From Desulfonauticus sp. (GTDB lineage Bacteria > Desulfobacterota > Desulfovibrionia > Desulfovibrionales > Desulfonatronovibrionaceae): DNA of 64,000 nucleotides. The notes beneath the pieces are model-generated. The model was given only the letters and a program-made list of their open reading frames with translations, did no database searches and was not told the origin of the DNA. Made by a program: the position numbers and the translations under genes. Below, piece by piece: positions 151-37,178 of the stretch. The stretch spans positions 124,001 through 188,000 of the forward strand of contig JAUZRP010000038.1 in NCBI GenBank assembly GCA_030950395.1, given 5' to 3'. Positions within the stretch are counted from its first letter, which is position 1, and each line of letters begins with the position of its first letter.

Positions 151-2301
151 TTAGGGCAAGCGAAATCCACCTTTCAGGCGAACGACTTTATGAATCCCTT
201 TTATGTTTTGGACCTGCCTTATAGCTTTATATAAATGGGATGTGCTTTGGACAAGAATCGTAAAATTTAGCTCAGAGTTTCCATCCACATTAGAATAAAA
301 AGTTCCAGACTCAATATTAATATTTTGCTCACCTAATACTTTAGTAATTTTTGCCAACATCCCTGGTCTATTTTCACAGTTTATTTTTATCTTTACAGGA
401 AAACTTTGATCTGTTTCATCATCCCATACAACACTCAATCTCCGCTCAGGTTCCAAATCTTTTACGTTCGGACAATCGATAGTATGAACTGTAACTCCCT
501 TACCTCTACTAATATAACCTACTATAGGATCTCCTGGAACGGGATTGCAACATTTTGCAAACCTAACCAATATATCTTCAACGCCTTTTATTTTTACCCC
601 AGGGACAGACTTGTTTTCAACGACCTGTTCTTTTTTCCCCTTTTTTTCAGTTATAACATCTGCTTTGGGTAAAAATTTATTTAATACCTGACGAGGTTTG
701 ATCTTTGTATACCCAACTGCAGAAAATAAATCATCTTCACTTTGTAAAGAAAACTCTTGAGCAACTTCTAAAAATTTCCCCTCTTTTAACAAATTTTGGA
801 AATCTAATCCCAATCTTCTGCCCTCTTTTTCCAAAATTTCTTTTCCTAAAGCAATGCTACTTTCTCTTTCTTCGTGTCTAATCCAATATTTAATTCTGGT
901 CCTGGCTTTGGCTGTTTTAACAAATTTTAACCAATCTCTACTAGGATGCTTGCTAGGATCTGTGATAATTTCTACCACATCTCCATTTTTTAAAGGTGTA
1001 TTTAAAGAAACTAATTTGCCATTTACCTTAGCTCCTGCACAATGATCTCCTATCTGAGAATGAATTAAGTAAGCAAAGTCAATTGGCGTAGCTCCTTCTG
1101 GCAATTCTTTTACATCTCCCTTAGGAGTAAACACATAAACCTCATCCTGAAAAAGATCACAACGCAAAGAATTGATAAATTCTCTTGGGTCCTTAAGTTC
1201 CTTTTGCCAATCCAAAATCTGTCTTAACCAAGAAAATTTTTTGATCTCTTTTTCATTAAGTTTGGTATCACCTTCTTTATAAGTCCAATGGGCAGCCACC
1301 CCGTATTCTGCAATTTTGTGCATTTCTTCTGTTCTAATTTGAATTTCTATTCTTTCAGCATCTGGACCAATAACTGTGGTATGTAAACTTTGATACATAT
1401 TGGCCTTGGGCATAGAAATATAATCTTTAAACCTGCCATAGATAGGTTTCCACAAGGCATGGACAAGACCAAGAACCGCATAACAATCTTTAATATTCTG
1501 AACTATTACTCTAAAGGCAACAATATCATAAACCTGATCTAGAGTTAGACCTTGTGTCTCCATTTTGTGATAAATACTATAAATATGTTTGATCCTACCG
1601 TTCACTCTTCCCTGAATTTTATTTTTTTTCAATAAATCTTCTAAAATAGAGCAAACTTTTTTAATGTATTGATCTCCTGTGGTCTGAAATTTTTTAATGC
1701 CTTGCTCAATCTGAAAATAAATATCTGGTTTTGTATAACGCAAACTTAAATCTTCTAACTCTACTTTTATTTTATATAAGCCCAGTCTATTGGCTAATGG
1801 AGCATAAATATCCAGAGTTTCCTGGGCAATCAGCTTTTGCTTAATCTCTTTTTGATGCTCTAAAGTACGCATATTGTGGAGCCTATCTGCAAGCTTTACC
1901 AAAATCACCCTAATGTCCTCTGCCATTGCTAAGATCATCTTACGAGTATTTTCTGCCTGAGCTTCTTCTTTTGAACTAAAATTTATTTTACTAATCTTGG
2001 TGACTCCACGCACAATTTTAAAAACATCCTCTCCAAATTGTTCCCTAATAGTTTCAAGAGTCACATCTGTATCTTCCACTGTATCGTGGAGCAATCCTGA
2101 AGCAATGGTGGGGCCATCCAGATAAAAGTCCGTTAAAATCTTGGCTACTTCTAAAGGATGAGAAAGATAAGGATCTCCACTTAAACGAGTTTGTCCAGCA
2201 TGAGCAGCTGCAGAAAACACATAAGCTTTTTGAATCAAAGCAATGTCTTTATTATTAAGATAGGTTCTGGCTTTATCTAAAATTTCTGTGATTCTAATCA
2301 T
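151..2301 (-). CDS. rel: Bifunctional (p)ppGpp synthetase/hydrolase, Rel/SpoT family
   Basis: This 716-residue protein makes and degrades the stringent-response alarmone (p)ppGpp. An N-terminal HD hydrolase domain is intact (His48, His72-Asp73, Glu76-Asp77). The synthetase domain (about 230-340) contains RFKD at 290-293; the RxKD form is characteristic of bifunctional enzymes, whereas monofunctional RelA has ExDD. A TGS domain starts near 386 and an ACT domain occupies the C-terminus. Length is normal for the family. It is the only gene of its kind seen here, consistent with one bifunctional Rel enzyme. No clear Shine-Dalgarno sequence precedes the ATG; an intergenic repeat begins 2 bp upstream of it. 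Confidence 0.95.
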   Translation of the reverse strand: MIRITEILDKARTYLNNKDIALIQKAYVFSAAAHAGQTRLSGDPYLSHPLEVAKILTDFYLDGPTIASGLLHDTVEDTDVTLETIREQFGEDVFKIVRGVTKISKINFSSKEEAQAENTRKMILAMAEDIRVILVKLADRLHNMRTLEHQKEIKQKLIAQETLDIYAPLANRLGLYKIKVELEDLSLRYTKPDIYFQIEQGIKKFQTTGDQYIKKVCSILEDLLKKNKIQGRVNGRIKHIYSIYHKMETQGLTLDQVYDIVAFRVIVQNIKDCYAVLGLVHALWKPIYGRFKDYISMPKANMYQSLHTTVIGPDAERIEIQIRTEEMHKIAEYGVAAHWTYKEGDTKLNEKEIKKFSWLRQILDWQKELKDPREFINSLRCDLFQDEVYVFTPKGDVKELPEGATPIDFAYLIHSQIGDHCAGAKVNGKLVSLNTPLKNGDVVEIITDPSKHPSRDWLKFVKTAKARTRIKYWIRHEERESSIALGKEILEKEGRRLGLDFQNLLKEGKFLEVAQEFSLQSEDDLFSAVGYTKIKPRQVLNKFLPKADVITEKKGKKEQVVENKSVPGVKIKGVEDILVRFAKCCNPVPGDPIVGYISRGKGVTVHTIDCPNVKDLEPERRLSVVWDDETDQSFPVKIKINCENRPGMLAKITKVLGEQNINIESGTFYSNVDGNSELNFTILVQSTSHLYKAIRQVQNIKGIHKVVRLKGGFRLP

Positions 2302-32034: not shown

Positions 32035-32586
32035 ATGCACGAAACCAGTTTAAATCAAACTATTCAGGATTATTTGACAGGCAAAGAGATAGAGCTAACT
32101 TCTTTTGAAGATATACGTCAGGCTTTGGCCAAAATGTTAGTAGAAGAAAAGGGATATCCCAGAGAAAATATTAAGGCCAAACAAAAGCTTAGTTTGAGCT
32201 TAGAAAATGATAAATCCTTTGAAATTTTAATAGACTTTATAATTTATGATCCCCAAAAAAAGCCTTTAATGCTTTTGGCGTTTTGTCCTGGAGAAGTGGC
32301 GTCCTTTGTGCGGCAATATATCGCAGTGGCCAGATTATATGATCCGTTTATCCCTCTTGTGTTAGTTACTGATACCAAAGAAGCTTATTTGATACAAAGT
32401 GCTGATAAAAAAATTTTACAAAAAGGATATTATGCCATTCCAACGTATTCAGAATTGGCAGATTTGGCCCAGAAAGCTCCCTCCTTTAAGTTGGATGCCA
32501 AAAAGCAAAAAGCTGAAACTTGTCTTGCCCACGCTTATTTTGCTCTGACTGCAGGTTGTTGTAATTCTGGTCAGTGCTCTAAGTAA
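32035..32586 (+). CDS. Stand-alone HSDR_N-like (PD-(D/E)xK fold) protein
   Basis: 183 residues similar to the N-terminal nuclease domain of type I restriction R subunits (HSDR_N_2), but without any helicase or HsdM/HsdS genes around it. The usual order R..D-(x)n-ExK is only partly kept: EILIDFIIYD supplies an Asp, but the strand where ExK is expected reads LLAFCPG. It is therefore probably not an active nuclease. The tail is Cys-rich (AGCCNSGQCSK). Function unknown; calling it a restriction enzyme would be misleading. Confidence 0.65.
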   Translation: MHETSLNQTIQDYLTGKEIELTSFEDIRQALAKMLVEEKGYPRENIKAKQKLSLSLENDKSFEILIDFIIYDPQKKPLMLLAFCPGEVASFVRQYIAVARLYDPFIPLVLVTDTKEAYLIQSADKKILQKGYYAIPTYSELADLAQKAPSFKLDAKKQKAETCLAHAYFALTAGCCNSGQCSK

Positions 32587-32912: not shown

Positions 32913-34007
32913 TTAAATGAGATTATCAAAACTTAAGTTTTCCAGATGTTTATTTAGTCCGCCGAGTTTTTGGGGAGTATAGCCTAAAATTTTTTCCCAG
33001 ATTAGATCAGATTCCATACAGAAATATATCTGTTTGTCCAAACCAGCCTGTTTTAATTTGTTCACTATAAAAGAAAAGATTTTTAAACGTAAGGGCAAAA
33101 ATAGTCTTAATTTGCCATCCAGGCCAGGGACGTATTCGTCGTAAATATAGGTAACTTGAGGATGGTTTTGTTCTATAGTTTTAAATAGCGTGGGCATACC
33201 TCTAAAAGAACCAAGACTAAAATAACAGATATGTTCTGGTTTTAGATAATCAAAAATCATTTCAATCACTGTGGCATAACCTTTTTCCCAACCAGGATAA
33301 TGAATAATTGGATCAAAATGCAAACAAACCTTTAATCCCTTTTCCGTACAGGTTTTGGCTGCTTTTAAACGCTGTTCAAGACTAGATGTAAATTTTTCTT
33401 CTTTTTGTGCTATGTCAGGACTGTTTAGAGACCAGGCTGGCAAAACATGATCTACTTTATTTAGACCAGAGAGCCAGCTTAGATCCACTACTTTACTTTT
33501 TAATTCGATGCGAATGTTGGAATAATCGGCTAAAAATTGGACCAAATGTTTAGCATATCCAGTAATAGGCTCTAAAACTAAAGAATCTGTAAATTCACCC
33601 GTTCCAGTCCTATAACGCAAGTTAGGATTGCTGCGCAAAGTCCTGTCTAATTCTTCATAAAGGTCATTTATATTTCCCCATATCTTTAAAGTGTTGTCCT
33701 GAAAATAGGCTTGTAAAATACAATAAGAACAAGCTAGAGGACAATTTTCCCCAAAGTGAACGATTTTATATCCACAACAATTATAATATCTAGTTCCAGG
33801 ACAAAAGCGCAAAAATTTGCCCTTAAATTGTTTTACAATTAAACTGCCCTTTTGGCAGTCATCTATTTTTTTTAGGACCAAAAATTGAGCCTGAGGAAGA
33901 TTGGAACGAATATTTTGGACAATAGGATTATTCGTGCTTAGTTGCGCATCTACATAGACTTGCTTTAGATGTAAATATGAAGGTAACTTAGACGGTAAGG
34001 AGGTCAT
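32913..34007 (-). CDS. SPL-family radical SAM protein
   Basis: 364 residues of the spore-photoproduct-lyase-like radical SAM family. CPLACSYC (Cys89, Cys93, Cys96) is the CxxxCxxC motif that binds the 4Fe-4S cluster and SAM. Flanking elements such as RFCPGTRYYNCCGYKIVHFGENC and the later YRTGTGEFTDSL support this family. The organism shows no sign of spore formation here, so true spore photoproduct repair is doubtful. The start overlaps the preceding ParB-like gene by 20 bp, pointing to translational coupling and a shared role. Confidence 0.85.
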   Translation of the reverse strand: MTSLPSKLPSYLHLKQVYVDAQLSTNNPIVQNIRSNLPQAQFLVLKKIDDCQKGSLIVKQFKGKFLRFCPGTRYYNCCGYKIVHFGENCPLACSYCILQAYFQDNTLKIWGNINDLYEELDRTLRSNPNLRYRTGTGEFTDSLVLEPITGYAKHLVQFLADYSNIRIELKSKVVDLSWLSGLNKVDHVLPAWSLNSPDIAQKEEKFTSSLEQRLKAAKTCTEKGLKVCLHFDPIIHYPGWEKGYATVIEMIFDYLKPEHICYFSLGSFRGMPTLFKTIEQNHPQVTYIYDEYVPGLDGKLRLFLPLRLKIFSFIVNKLKQAGLDKQIYFCMESDLIWEKILGYTPQKLGGLNKHLENLSFDNLI

Positions 34008-34962
34008 GCCATATTTTCCAGGGGTTTTGCTTGGCTATCAGCCTTAACTCTGTAATTGCCTGCTCCAATGTTTTTTGACCATTGAGGTGGGCCTGAAAAA
34101 AAAGGGCTGTATTTTCAAGATGTTGTTTATGCTCTATGTGCCACAAGGTCCCGTTAGAAATGTTTTTAAGGTGTTGATCTAATTGGGTCTTTTTTACGGC
34201 CATAGTAGGAAATCTTTTATTCCAAACAGTATGTAAAATGTTTTTTATTTTGTCTTGAGGAGATAAGTTAGATTTTAAGATAGCTATAAGGCCAAGGTCT
34301 TGCTCTAGCTGTTCTAGAGCGATGTGCTGCTGGAGTTTTAATTCCGTTAGCCAAGTTAATAATTTATGTTGATTTGATTTAGACCATTTTAGGAGTTTAA
34401 AAAAAGGGAAAAGATATTCAAGCTCTGGCTGTTTTAACTTTGCTAGATAGGTGCTACTTTCCAAACATAAGTGTTCGTTTTCTAATAGTTCGTCCCAGTA
34501 AGCAGGTAGCCTGAGCCAGGTTTGAAAGTATTCTTGTTGAGGTCCTTTAATATTAATCTGTAACAATTCCAAATCTTCTTTTTCCCAGCCAAAAGGGGTT
34601 AAAATGCGCAGAGCTTTTATTTTAGCCCAGGGGGTATTTAGTTGGTGCGCGTTTAAGGATACGTAAAGTAAGATTAATTTTTTTATAGGTAAAGGTTCTA
34701 TTTCTAAACACCAGATGGGCTGATTTAATTGGAGCGCTGCCTGCACTCGTTTGTATCCGTGGACAAGATGGTAGCGCTTATTTTTTTTTATCACTAAAAC
34801 CGGAGTTTGCTGGCCAAATTTTTTTATCTGTTGAATAAAGTCTGTTGAAGGTTCCTTGGGCCATACGATCCAGGGATGGCGGCAAGATATGTGCTCGGGA
34901 GATACTAAAAATACCTTTTTTGACCTAATTGTTGTGTCTATTTTTTGACCATTACTTGACAT
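33988..34962 (-). CDS. ParB-like nuclease-domain protein
   Basis: 324 residues. The N-terminal part (about 30-105) carries a ParB/Srx-like motif, PVLVIKKNKRYHLVHGYKRVQAAL, with the GxxR signature as GYKR. There is no recognisable HTH DNA-binding region of chromosomal ParB, and the rest is helical and Leu/Gln-rich. It is therefore unlikely to be the missing partner of the parA at 6555. The downstream radical SAM gene overlaps it by 20 bp. ParB-fold domains may hydrolyse CTP or modify nucleotides, so a joint nucleic-acid role is possible but unproven. Confidence 0.7.
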   Translation of the reverse strand: MSSNGQKIDTTIRSKKVFLVSPEHISCRHPWIVWPKEPSTDFIQQIKKFGQQTPVLVIKKNKRYHLVHGYKRVQAALQLNQPIWCLEIEPLPIKKLILLYVSLNAHQLNTPWAKIKALRILTPFGWEKEDLELLQINIKGPQQEYFQTWLRLPAYWDELLENEHLCLESSTYLAKLKQPELEYLFPFFKLLKWSKSNQHKLLTWLTELKLQQHIALEQLEQDLGLIAILKSNLSPQDKIKNILHTVWNKRFPTMAVKKTQLDQHLKNISNGTLWHIEHKQHLENTALFFQAHLNGQKTLEQAITELRLIAKQNPWKIWHDLLTV

Positions 34963-35114
34963 TTTTTCTTTTATCTATCTATAATTCTAAGTTAAAAAAG
35001 CTTTATAGGCAAAGAAAAGAGTTTTTTCAATCTAATTTTAGTCAAAATTTAGAGAATCACAGTAAAGTAGAGTTATCCCTTGGACAGGGGAAAATAATAA
35101 AAGGGGGCAAGTTT

Positions 35115-37178
35115 ATGTTGGAAAAATTGGTAAAACAAAGGACCTATGCCTTAGTTGGTAGCGGTGGATGTGGGAAAACCTCAATAGCTGAAGCTATGCT
35201 TGTACAGGCCAAAGTTATTCCTCGTCTGGGCAAAATAGAACATGGGACAACTACTTTAGACTATGAACCCGAAGAGATTAAGCGCCGAGGCAGTATTCAA
35301 CCTGGTTTTGCGTATTTTTCCTGGCAAAAAAGCAACCATTATTTAGTAGATATTCCGGGAGATACTAATTTTCATGGGGATATCCAATACTTACTAACTG
35401 CTGTAGATGGAGTTGTTTTTGTTTTAGATGTTGTAGATGGCGTTAAACCCATGGCTAAAAAAGTGTGGCAGGAGATAGAGCAGGCTCAACTCCCTGCCCT
35501 TATGTTTCTCAACAAGTTGGATAGAGAGCTGGCTGATTTTGAATCAGCTTATAAGGGAATTCAAAAAATTTTAGGGGTTAAACCTGTTTTGCTCTTTTAT
35601 CCCATAGGTTCAGGAGAAAATTTTCAGGGTTTAGTTGATGTTTTGGCGTATCAAGCTTATTTTTTTGCCGAGGATGGATTATTACAAAAAGGCGATATCC
35701 CTGCAAATTTGGAAGAGAAAATTAAAGAAATTAGAATTTCTTTAATAGAAGATATAGCTGAAAGTGATGAGACGTTGATGGAGAAATATTTAACACAAGG
35801 GGAACTGAGCCCAGAGGAACTGTTAGCTGGACTTAGAAAAGGAGTGCTGAATAGAAATTTTTTTCCTGTATGTCTTGGAGCTGCTTTAGAAAACAAAGGC
35901 ATTAACCTCTTATTAAATTTCATCAATGGACTTTTGCCTTGTCCGTTAGATAGAGCTCCTTTTTCAGGAGAAAATAACGAAACTAGAGCATCAGATCCAG
36001 ATGCGCCTTGTGCTGCTTTTGTTTTTAAAACTATAGCTGATCCTTTTACTGGTCATTTAAGTGTATTACGAGTGCTTTCAGGAAAAATTGGCTCAGACAT
36101 GGTGTTATTTAACGCCAACAAAGGGCATAAAGAAAAATTAGGGCAATTATTTGTGTTTGAAGGGAAAAAACAAATCCCTTTAAAAGAAGAGGTAGGACCT
36201 GGAGCTATAGTTGCTGTGGCCAAATTAAAAGACACTAAGACCGGCCATACTCTTTGTGCTGAACAAGCTCCTTTTAGATTAAAAAAACCAGCTCTTGCGC
36301 CTACTATTATTTCTTATGCCTTGGCTGCTGAAAAACAAGGAGAAGAAGATAAAGTTTTTGCTAGTGTGCAAAAAATATTAGATGAAGACATAACTTTACA
36401 TCTTGCACGAGACGAAGAAACAGGAGATATGCTCTTGTCTGGCATGGGACAATTGCACATCGAAACTACTATAGAAAAAATTAAACGCCGTTATAAGGTG
36501 GGGATCGTCTTGCAACAACCCAAGATTCCTTATAGAGAGACCATCAAAAGTAAAGCAGAGGCTCAGGGAAAATACAAAAAACAAACGGGTGGACGCGGTC
36601 AATATGGAGATTGCTGGATAAGATTAGAGCCTTTACCTCGGGGCAAAGGATACGAATTTGTGGATGCAATTGTTGGCGGTGTTATTCCGAAACAATACAT
36701 TCCCGCGGTGGATGCTGGTATACAAGAAGCTGCCCAAAAAGGGGTTTTGGCTGGTTATCCTGTGGTTGATTTTAAAGTAACTCTTTACGATGGCTCGTAT
36801 CATAGTGTGGATTCTTCAGAAATGGCTTTTAAAATTGCAGGATCTATGGCCTTTAAAAATGCTGTAATCAAATCTAAACCTGTCTTGCTAGAGCCGATTA
36901 TGAAAGTAACAATATACATCCCTGACCAATACATGGGAGATATTATTGGGGATATTTCCAGCAGACGGGGTAAAGTCCTTGGCTCTGACACTAAAGACGG
37001 TTTAACCGAAGTAAAGGCAGAAGTGCCTATGGCCGAAATGTTGAGCTATGCGCAAAGCCTCACTTCCATGACCAGTGGGCAGGGTACTTACGTGATGGAA
37101 TTTGATCACTACGCTGAAGTACCAGCTCAAATAGCAGAAAAAATTATCGCAGAAAGTAAAAATCCACAGGAACATTGA
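35115..37178 (+). CDS. EF-G-like translational GTPase paralogue
   Basis: 687 residues with the EF-G domain order. The P-loop GSGGCGKT (15-22) and the FLNKLDRE motif for guanine are intact. The G3 region reads DIPGD (79-83) where canonical EF-G has DTPGH, so the catalytic His is replaced, and the switch I region RGSIQPG lacks the usual Thr. It is thus a divergent paralogue and not the main elongation factor. The start at Met 35115, with GGGGG upstream, gives the family-like opening MLEKLVKQRTYALVG; the frame remains open further 5' but without similarity. Confidence 0.85.
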   Translation: MLEKLVKQRTYALVGSGGCGKTSIAEAMLVQAKVIPRLGKIEHGTTTLDYEPEEIKRRGSIQPGFAYFSWQKSNHYLVDIPGDTNFHGDIQYLLTAVDGVVFVLDVVDGVKPMAKKVWQEIEQAQLPALMFLNKLDRELADFESAYKGIQKILGVKPVLLFYPIGSGENFQGLVDVLAYQAYFFAEDGLLQKGDIPANLEEKIKEIRISLIEDIAESDETLMEKYLTQGELSPEELLAGLRKGVLNRNFFPVCLGAALENKGINLLLNFINGLLPCPLDRAPFSGENNETRASDPDAPCAAFVFKTIADPFTGHLSVLRVLSGKIGSDMVLFNANKGHKEKLGQLFVFEGKKQIPLKEEVGPGAIVAVAKLKDTKTGHTLCAEQAPFRLKKPALAPTIISYALAAEKQGEEDKVFASVQKILDEDITLHLARDEETGDMLLSGMGQLHIETTIEKIKRRYKVGIVLQQPKIPYRETIKSKAEAQGKYKKQTGGRGQYGDCWIRLEPLPRGKGYEFVDAIVGGVIPKQYIPAVDAGIQEAAQKGVLAGYPVVDFKVTLYDGSYHSVDSSEMAFKIAGSMAFKNAVIKSKPVLLEPIMKVTIYIPDQYMGDIIGDISSRRGKVLGSDTKDGLTEVKAEVPMAEMLSYAQSLTSMTSGQGTYVMEFDHYAEVPAQIAEKIIAESKNPQEH

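Follow-up and report, generated by a model that had tools for sequence, protein, structure and literature searches.

Spore photoproduct lyase (SPL) is the textbook radical SAM enzyme of DNA repair, and it comes from spore-forming bacteria. Its known H-atom relay is formed by Cys141 and Tyr99, and in the SPL of C. acetobutylicum another cysteine, C74, has been described as the donor, according to the passages on mechanism in two papers (PMC3742179, PMC5368176). SPL-like genes have already been noted in bacteria that do not sporulate, for example in vent Epsilonproteobacteria (passage in PMC2628731). ParB, Noc and KorB are CTP-switch DNA clamps. In the relevant passages of the literature, the hydrolysis of CTP is reported to need two glutamates, E78 and E111 in the ParB of B. 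subtilis (PMC8494293), and the arginine of the GxxR motif is reported to be needed for NTP binding in the ParB-CTPase fold (PMC12704722). Another example of this fold is PadC of Myxococcus, which is described as binding CTP without hydrolysing it, with Phe348 at the place of the first glutamate and the second motif absent (passage in PMC8494293). Radical SAM, photolyase and SPL all go unmentioned in the main text of a recent survey of the ParB-CTPase fold (PMC12704722), and no paper describing a pair made of the two families was found in a search of open-access journal papers, where the one paper to name both spore photoproduct lyase and ParB is a genome comparison of C. acetobutylicum.

Such a pair is described here. 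One member is an enzyme of SPL fold whose active site has been rewired and which is kept across a phylum made up mainly of anaerobes; the other is a ParB-family protein, nearly always encoded next to the enzyme or at another place in the genome. The pair would enlarge the radical SAM repertoire of repair and modification and give the nucleotide switch of the ParB type a role other than chromosome segregation.

Gene arrangement at the locus

The two genes lie within a stretch of 64,000 nucleotides of Desulfonauticus sp. (assembly GCA_030950395.1, contig JAUZRP010000038.1, positions 124,001 to 188,000), referred to as the window, and their features are collected in Table 1. The nearest named relatives are records of Desulfohalobiaceae and Desulfothermus, as found in a scan of genome contigs with one protein as query, which picks up close relatives only (three loci). 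The ParB-like gene is the upstream one, and the SPL-like gene starts inside it in a different frame, which confirms the overlap of 20 bp given in the preliminary description. This overlap is not fixed among relatives, where the distance between profile hits varies from -17 to 570 bp; open reading frame (ORF) overlaps of 4, 8 or 20 bp occur in several of their loci, with start codons that were assigned mechanically. When the region in front of the ParB-like gene was searched for a palindromic operator, only weak inverted repeats were found, and these differ among relatives.

Table 1. Positions of the two genes in the window and of selected codons and motifs
Feature	Position	Strand	Details or basis
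SPL-like radical SAM enzyme gene	32913..34007	-	364 aa, ATG at 34007
ParB-like partner gene	33988..34962	-	324 aa, ATG at 34962
Overlap of both genes	33988..34007	-	20 bp, ORF listing
Radical SAM motif C89-x3-C93-x2-C96 with Y95, codons 89-96	33720..33743	-	sequence
Codon Glu138, aligned with SPL Cys140/141 (H-atom donor)	33594..33596	-	alignment
Codon Cys69, one of the extra invariant cysteines C69, C78 and C330	33801..33803	-	alignment
GxxR nucleotide (P) motif G69-Y70-K71-R72, ParB-like gene	34747..34758	-	alignment
Domains of the ParB-like protein: NTPase-fold N, ~16-110; HTH-bearing M, ~111-210; C-terminal, ~235-324		-	fold and profile

Several features were observed in the surroundings of the two genes. 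A perfect promoter-like site (TTGACA-18-TATAAT, 12/12 match) at window positions 34956-34985 of the forward strand lies across the start of the ParB-like gene and is directed towards a divergent EF-G-like gene (~34929-37178, forward strand). The head-to-head layout of the ParB-like and EF-G-like genes is met repeatedly within the order, also in genomes whose SPL gene sits elsewhere. On the other side, a 183-aa protein of HSDR_N_2 type (32035-32586, forward strand; Pfam E 7.4e-11) is encoded convergently with the SPL-like gene. In six related loci a 168-202-aa ORF of one cluster stands beside the SPL-like gene, and the 183-aa ORF of the window falls outside this cluster at the clustering threshold.

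An SPL fold with a different active site

The SPL-like enzyme matches the Pfam family SPL (PF20903) with E 1.9e-16 and 60.3 bits, over a cut-off of 27. Its scores against two NCBI equivalog models stay far under the cut-offs (TIGR04070, E 2.6e-20 and 72.6 bits for a cut-off of 400; TIGR03886, 35.5 bits for a cut-off of 437.55). An AlphaFold2 model built from 29 sequences (pLDDT 91.8) was matched with spore photoproduct lyase by Foldseek (E 1.8e-20, TM 0.73-0.79), and VIA-align gave Z 32.6 to the lyase structure 4fhf over 313 residues at 2.4 Å, the next family reaching Z 14.8. The same closeness is found for the SplB structures as a set (PDB 4fhc-4fhg, 4k9r and 4rh0; Z ~32, 313-314 residues at 2.4 Å). 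The predicted structure thus shows a radical SAM protein with a complete SPL fold, and the assignment to the SPL family that had been made from the sequence is one on which Pfam, Foldseek and VIA-align agree.

Part of the SplB active site is retained. The cysteines C89, C93 and C96 of the CxxxCxxC motif and Y95 are shared by all 83 relatives, a tyrosine occupies the position of Tyr97 (Bs) or Tyr96 (Gt) in all 83, and conserved Lys, Ser and Asn positions of SplB correspond to K172, S193 and N195. In contrast to SplB, the position of the H-atom donor, Cys141 (Bs) or Cys140 (Gt), holds a glutamate (Glu138) in every one of the 83 relatives, and that of the relay residue Tyr99 (Bs) or Tyr98 (Gt) holds Ile in 74, Phe in 7, Val in 1 and Tyr in 1, Ile97 being the residue of the enzyme described here. 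Both columns were placed alike by three MAFFT methods. The enzyme differs from SplB, in addition, by an insertion that precedes the radical SAM motif and contains a CC pair, and by further invariant cysteines: C69, C78 and C330 are each present in 83 of 83 relatives, and C77 in 78 of 83. Since Cys141 is replaced by Glu and Tyr99 mostly by Ile, the enzyme has the SPL fold without the known radical relay of SPL. Judged by the alignment, C69, C78 and C330 could take over H-atom donation or could bind metal at a second site. A donor at another position would not be without example, given the C74 of C. acetobutylicum SPL and the S76C variant named in the title of PDB entry 4rh0.

These observations bear on whether the enzyme is an ordinary SPL, whose task in vegetative cells would be the repair of 5-thyminyl-5,6-dihydrothymine through the established mechanism; that reading is improbable. 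The Pfam score above cut-off, the full-length fold match, the radical SAM cysteines and the preserved position of the SAM-contacting Tyr97 agree with it. Against it stand the glutamate at the Cys141 position in all relatives, the Ile, Phe or Val at the Tyr99 position in 82 of 83, and the 72.6 bits obtained for an equivalog cut-off of 400. Because the two defining residues that were tested are not found, the enzyme is not an SPL by the known mechanism; it may nonetheless work like one. As the SPL of C. acetobutylicum uses C74, ordinary SPL chemistry might in principle be restored by C69 or C78, and in three alignment methods neither of them falls firmly opposite C74. The host speaks against an ordinary SPL as well. 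Its assembly (G000), which is 97% complete, gave no match for the Spo0A C-terminal domain in a search whose control found that of B. subtilis; there is therefore no sign of sporulation, in line with the presumption of a non-spore-former in the preliminary description, and the host differs in this from that of SplB.

The clostridial-type SPL-like proteins (examples from Fusobacterium and from a gut contig, L105 and L106) resemble the enzyme in belonging to the radical SAM SPL family and in having a residue other than Cys at the Cys141 position. Unlike the enzyme, they carry no CC / GTGE / CMES signature, have SDR-type neighbours, and are encoded without a ParB neighbour in those loci that were read.

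A ParB-family protein outside partition

The protein encoded upstream of the enzyme stays below the cut-offs of ParB-type models (TIGR00180, E 1.3e-7; Pfam ParB_N, E 0.032). Its structural model (pLDDT 91.9) aligns with ParB (7bnk, VIA-align Z 13.4), and the fold alignment on ParB, Noc and KorB spans residues ~16-210. The large rmsd on several of these rows, such as that of 8qa9 (191 residues at 5.6 Å), probably reflects different angles between the N and M domains. The alignment profile of the family matches the Spo0J structure of H. pylori over the same ~16-210 span (E 1.4e-13), and hhalign of the family with the own ParB of the host covers 151 columns. Because fold and profile alignments both extend over ~16-210, the HTH-bearing M domain is present. 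The ParB/Srx nucleotide fold proposed from the sequence is therefore borne out by structure comparison, and the lack of the partition HTH, proposed along with it, has to be withdrawn.

The protein resembles ParB, Noc and KorB in the M domain and in an N domain where the G..P and GxxR motifs are found, and it differs from them in residues of CTP hydrolysis and parS reading, as seen when 64 full-length members of the family were compared with 14 true ParBs. The GxxR motif is kept (G69 in 64 of 64 members and R72 in 62). The columns of the two catalytic glutamates, with Glu in 13 and 14 of the 14 true ParBs, most commonly hold Y/F and S/D in the family; the first of them coincides with the second position of GxxR, where 46 of the 64 members have Tyr or Phe. 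The recognition-helix columns 140, 145 and 148 read R, N and R in 13 of 14 true ParBs, residues that are not dominant in the 64 members, so that sequence-specific DNA binding may be lost. The protein thus lacks the catalytic Glu pair and the residues that read parS. Nor was a ParB C-terminal domain recognised in it, and the C-terminal domain that it has could be assigned to no relative: whole-protein searches gave no Pfam match beyond the N domain, the ParB fold rows stop short of the C-terminal part, and within that part P252 and E283 are invariant among 29 rows. No parA adjoins the gene, whose neighbours in the window are the HSDR_N-type, SPL-like and EF-G-like genes, and the host carries a separate canonical ParB of 279 aa (L129). 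Judging from these residues and neighbours, the ParB-like protein is not a partition protein.

Among the closest described systems is also PadC, with which the protein shares the ParB nucleotide fold (Z 12.4) and an aromatic residue at the place of the catalytic Glu. PadC differs from it in architecture and partners, the partner gene here being that of a radical SAM enzyme.

Co-occurrence of the two genes

The gene-neighbourhood check called for in the preliminary description was carried out on two scales. At the level of the order, each protein was used as query on the same 61 genomes. The ParB-like gene was found in 44 and the SPL-like gene in 46, the 61 being divided into 44 genomes with both genes, none with the ParB-like gene only, 2 with the SPL gene only (G023 and G035) and 15 with neither. 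In 34 of the 44 genomes carrying both, the genes are adjacent on the same strand with the ParB-like gene first; in the other 10, which include the single-contig genome G025, they lie apart. The pair is thus conserved.

At the level of the phylum, profiles of both families were run against the same set of 297 genomes, with a threshold of E 1e-5 for SPL. Since the ParB profile also picks up true ParBs, with a best E-value of 6.3e-15 among the matches listed and over the N-terminal half only, the line for a ParB-like match was drawn at E 1.2e-15. SPL matches were found in 182 genomes and strong ParB-like matches in 136: both in 133, SPL only in 49, the ParB-like gene only in 3 and neither in 112. 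In the three ParB-like-only exceptions (G127, G215 and G309) the gene lies at the very end of a contig, and it is at this end that the SPL gene would be expected. Rare co-occurrence, which had been named beforehand as the outcome that would tell against a pair, is clearly not what is seen, with both genes in 44 of the 61 order genomes and in 133 of the 136 phylum genomes with a strong ParB-like match. Among the matches listed, the genes are adjacent in 77 of 121 phylum genomes with both.

The 49 SPL-only genomes were re-examined and resolved into 10 with another SPL type, 29 with an adjacent partner (14, 5 and 8, together with G336 and G208, where the partner is cut by the contig end) and 10 without partner. 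With the 10 other-type SPL genomes set aside, a partner was found in 162 of 172 SPL-positive genomes, in a part of which the CC / GTGE / CMES signature was inspected. The genomes still without partner are G158, G171, G174, G199, G216, G222, G224, G235, G240 and G243; in G222, G240 and G243 the SPL gene lies within ~110 bp of the contig start, and G216 holds a fused fragment. The signature goes with the ParB neighbour (L143-L146, L148 and L155; L143 has Gln in place of Glu138), and the 10 other-type SPL relatives of the phylum have no ParB neighbour. In at least nine families (f5, f13, f14, f15, f19, f20, f27, f54 and f82) there are members with both genes and members with neither, a joint absence that was read by eye from tables and to which incomplete assemblies contribute some of the genomes with neither.

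The fused fragment of G216 (L121, 1557-3071, reverse strand) is an ORF of 504 aa in which a ParB-family segment stands in frame ahead of the SPL part. The segment matches positions 190-251 of the ParB-family profile (14 bits, E 2e-6), and the SPL-like part is complete and retains most of the subtype signature. This single case, with its modest score, is suggestive of a natural ParB-SPL fusion, and the ParB segment may be a decayed partner.

A functional link between the two genes is strongly supported, and from its distribution among the genomes surveyed the pair is shown to be a real two-protein chromosomal module, inherited and lost together. That two unrelated genes stand side by side by chance or through operon inertia is strongly disfavoured, to the point of being highly improbable. 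Of the 44 order genomes that have both genes, 10 do not have them as neighbours, and the flanking genes are unrelated housekeeping genes, as such a reading would have it; its difficulty is that co-occurrence persists when the genes are separated, that they are lost jointly and that other SPL types have no partner. The near-obligate ParB-like partner is a further difference from SplB.

Two other observations come from the genomes of the phylum. Just upstream of the fused ORF of G216, an ORF at L121 3002-4276 (reverse strand) resembles another radical SAM protein by eye. Genomes of family f59 have unusually many ParB-N-like places, 28 in G336 and, among the matches listed, at least 7 each in G155 and G277.

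Genomic context and carriage

Across the phylum loci read, no conserved third gene was found. The flanking genes are housekeeping genes that change between families (EF-G-like, RNase J-like, glycosyltransferase, superoxide dismutase, HDOD, SDR and RNase PH, among others), and the EF-G-like, RNase J-like and HSDR_N-type neighbours recur within the order only, as far as the loci were read. On plasmids no member of the subtype was found, the 10 SPL-family records there being all below 30% identity; phages gave no member of the subtype and 2 distant records, and among viral contigs none was confirmed.

Two further roles were considered and set aside. A defence system was rejected on the result of PADLOC, where neither protein has a match at E 0.1. 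A UV-repair complement to photolyase was rejected because photolyase and the SPL-like gene show no association in either direction (43/139/26/89; Fisher p 0.89, a value that treats genomes as independent and is not to be read as a probability), an independence that gives no support for a UV role.

Possible function of the pair

The SPL-like enzyme and the ParB-like protein probably form a nucleic-acid repair or modification pair. From the SPL fold and the ParB architecture we infer that the pair may act on DNA, and linkage together with one fusion suggests that the two proteins may form a physical complex. The best reading, held tentatively and given somewhat less than an even chance, is that an NTP-gated ParB-like adaptor delivers a diverged SPL-type radical enzyme to DNA, where the enzyme would carry out repair or modify a base. 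Its steps would be the following. The ParB-like protein would bind nucleotide through GxxR and, to judge from its residues, would hydrolyse it poorly or not at all; it would reside on DNA as an adaptor or clamp gated by NTP, with its C-terminal domain recruiting or licensing the radical enzyme. The enzyme would make the 5'-deoxyadenosyl radical and act on a nucleobase in DNA, and one of C69, C78 and C330 would donate the H atom or bind a metal. The outcome would be either a modified base or the reversal of a lesion, whether a thymine dimer or some other lesion of anaerobes. A fuller version is possible and more doubtful: a nucleotide-gated ParB-type clamp that loads the radical SAM enzyme would give the anaerobic Desulfobacterota a light-independent repair or base modification with a new H-transfer relay, and would place a ParB-family switch outside segregation.

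The main rival is a radical enzyme that has a ParB-fold adaptor and modifies a target other than DNA. This target could be RNA, a factor associated with the ribosome, or the ParB-like partner, which would serve the enzyme as substrate, chaperone or specificity subunit and have no role on DNA. The loss of the recognition-helix residues points in this direction, as do the EF-G-like gene that stays head-to-head with the ParB-like gene where the SPL gene has moved away and the fusion of ParB-fold proteins to RNA-related domains elsewhere, mentioned in a passage of the fold survey (PMC12704722). The ParB-like partner, furthermore, evolves much faster than the enzyme (mean column identity of 30% versus 54%), as an accessory protein may. 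The rival is nevertheless rather unlikely: the full-length SPL fold (Z 32.6, the next family reaching 14.8) favours a substrate of the nucleic-acid lesion type, the M domain of the partner has the ParB HTH fold, and those loci of the phylum that were read beyond the order showed no EF-G neighbour.

Genes recurring beside SPL-like genes

Two other kinds of gene recur in the loci. A family-2 glycosyltransferase gene lies directly upstream of the ParB-like gene, or of an SPL gene without adjacent partner, in L119, L123 and L128. SDR-type genes recur beside SPL-like genes in unrelated lineages (L109, L110, L112, L105 and L106), the call resting on Pfam for L109 and on inspection by eye or on size for the others; an SDR-type gene beside the spl gene of Nautilia is given in a figure legend (PMC2628731). 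The L105 contig, of Fusobacterium vincentii, carries at 349-2220 an ORF of 623 aa whose N-terminal part resembles a nucleoside phosphorylase by eye, with no Pfam match at E 0.001; behind this part comes an SPL domain (E 9.9e-17), and the ORF is adjoined by an SDR-type gene.
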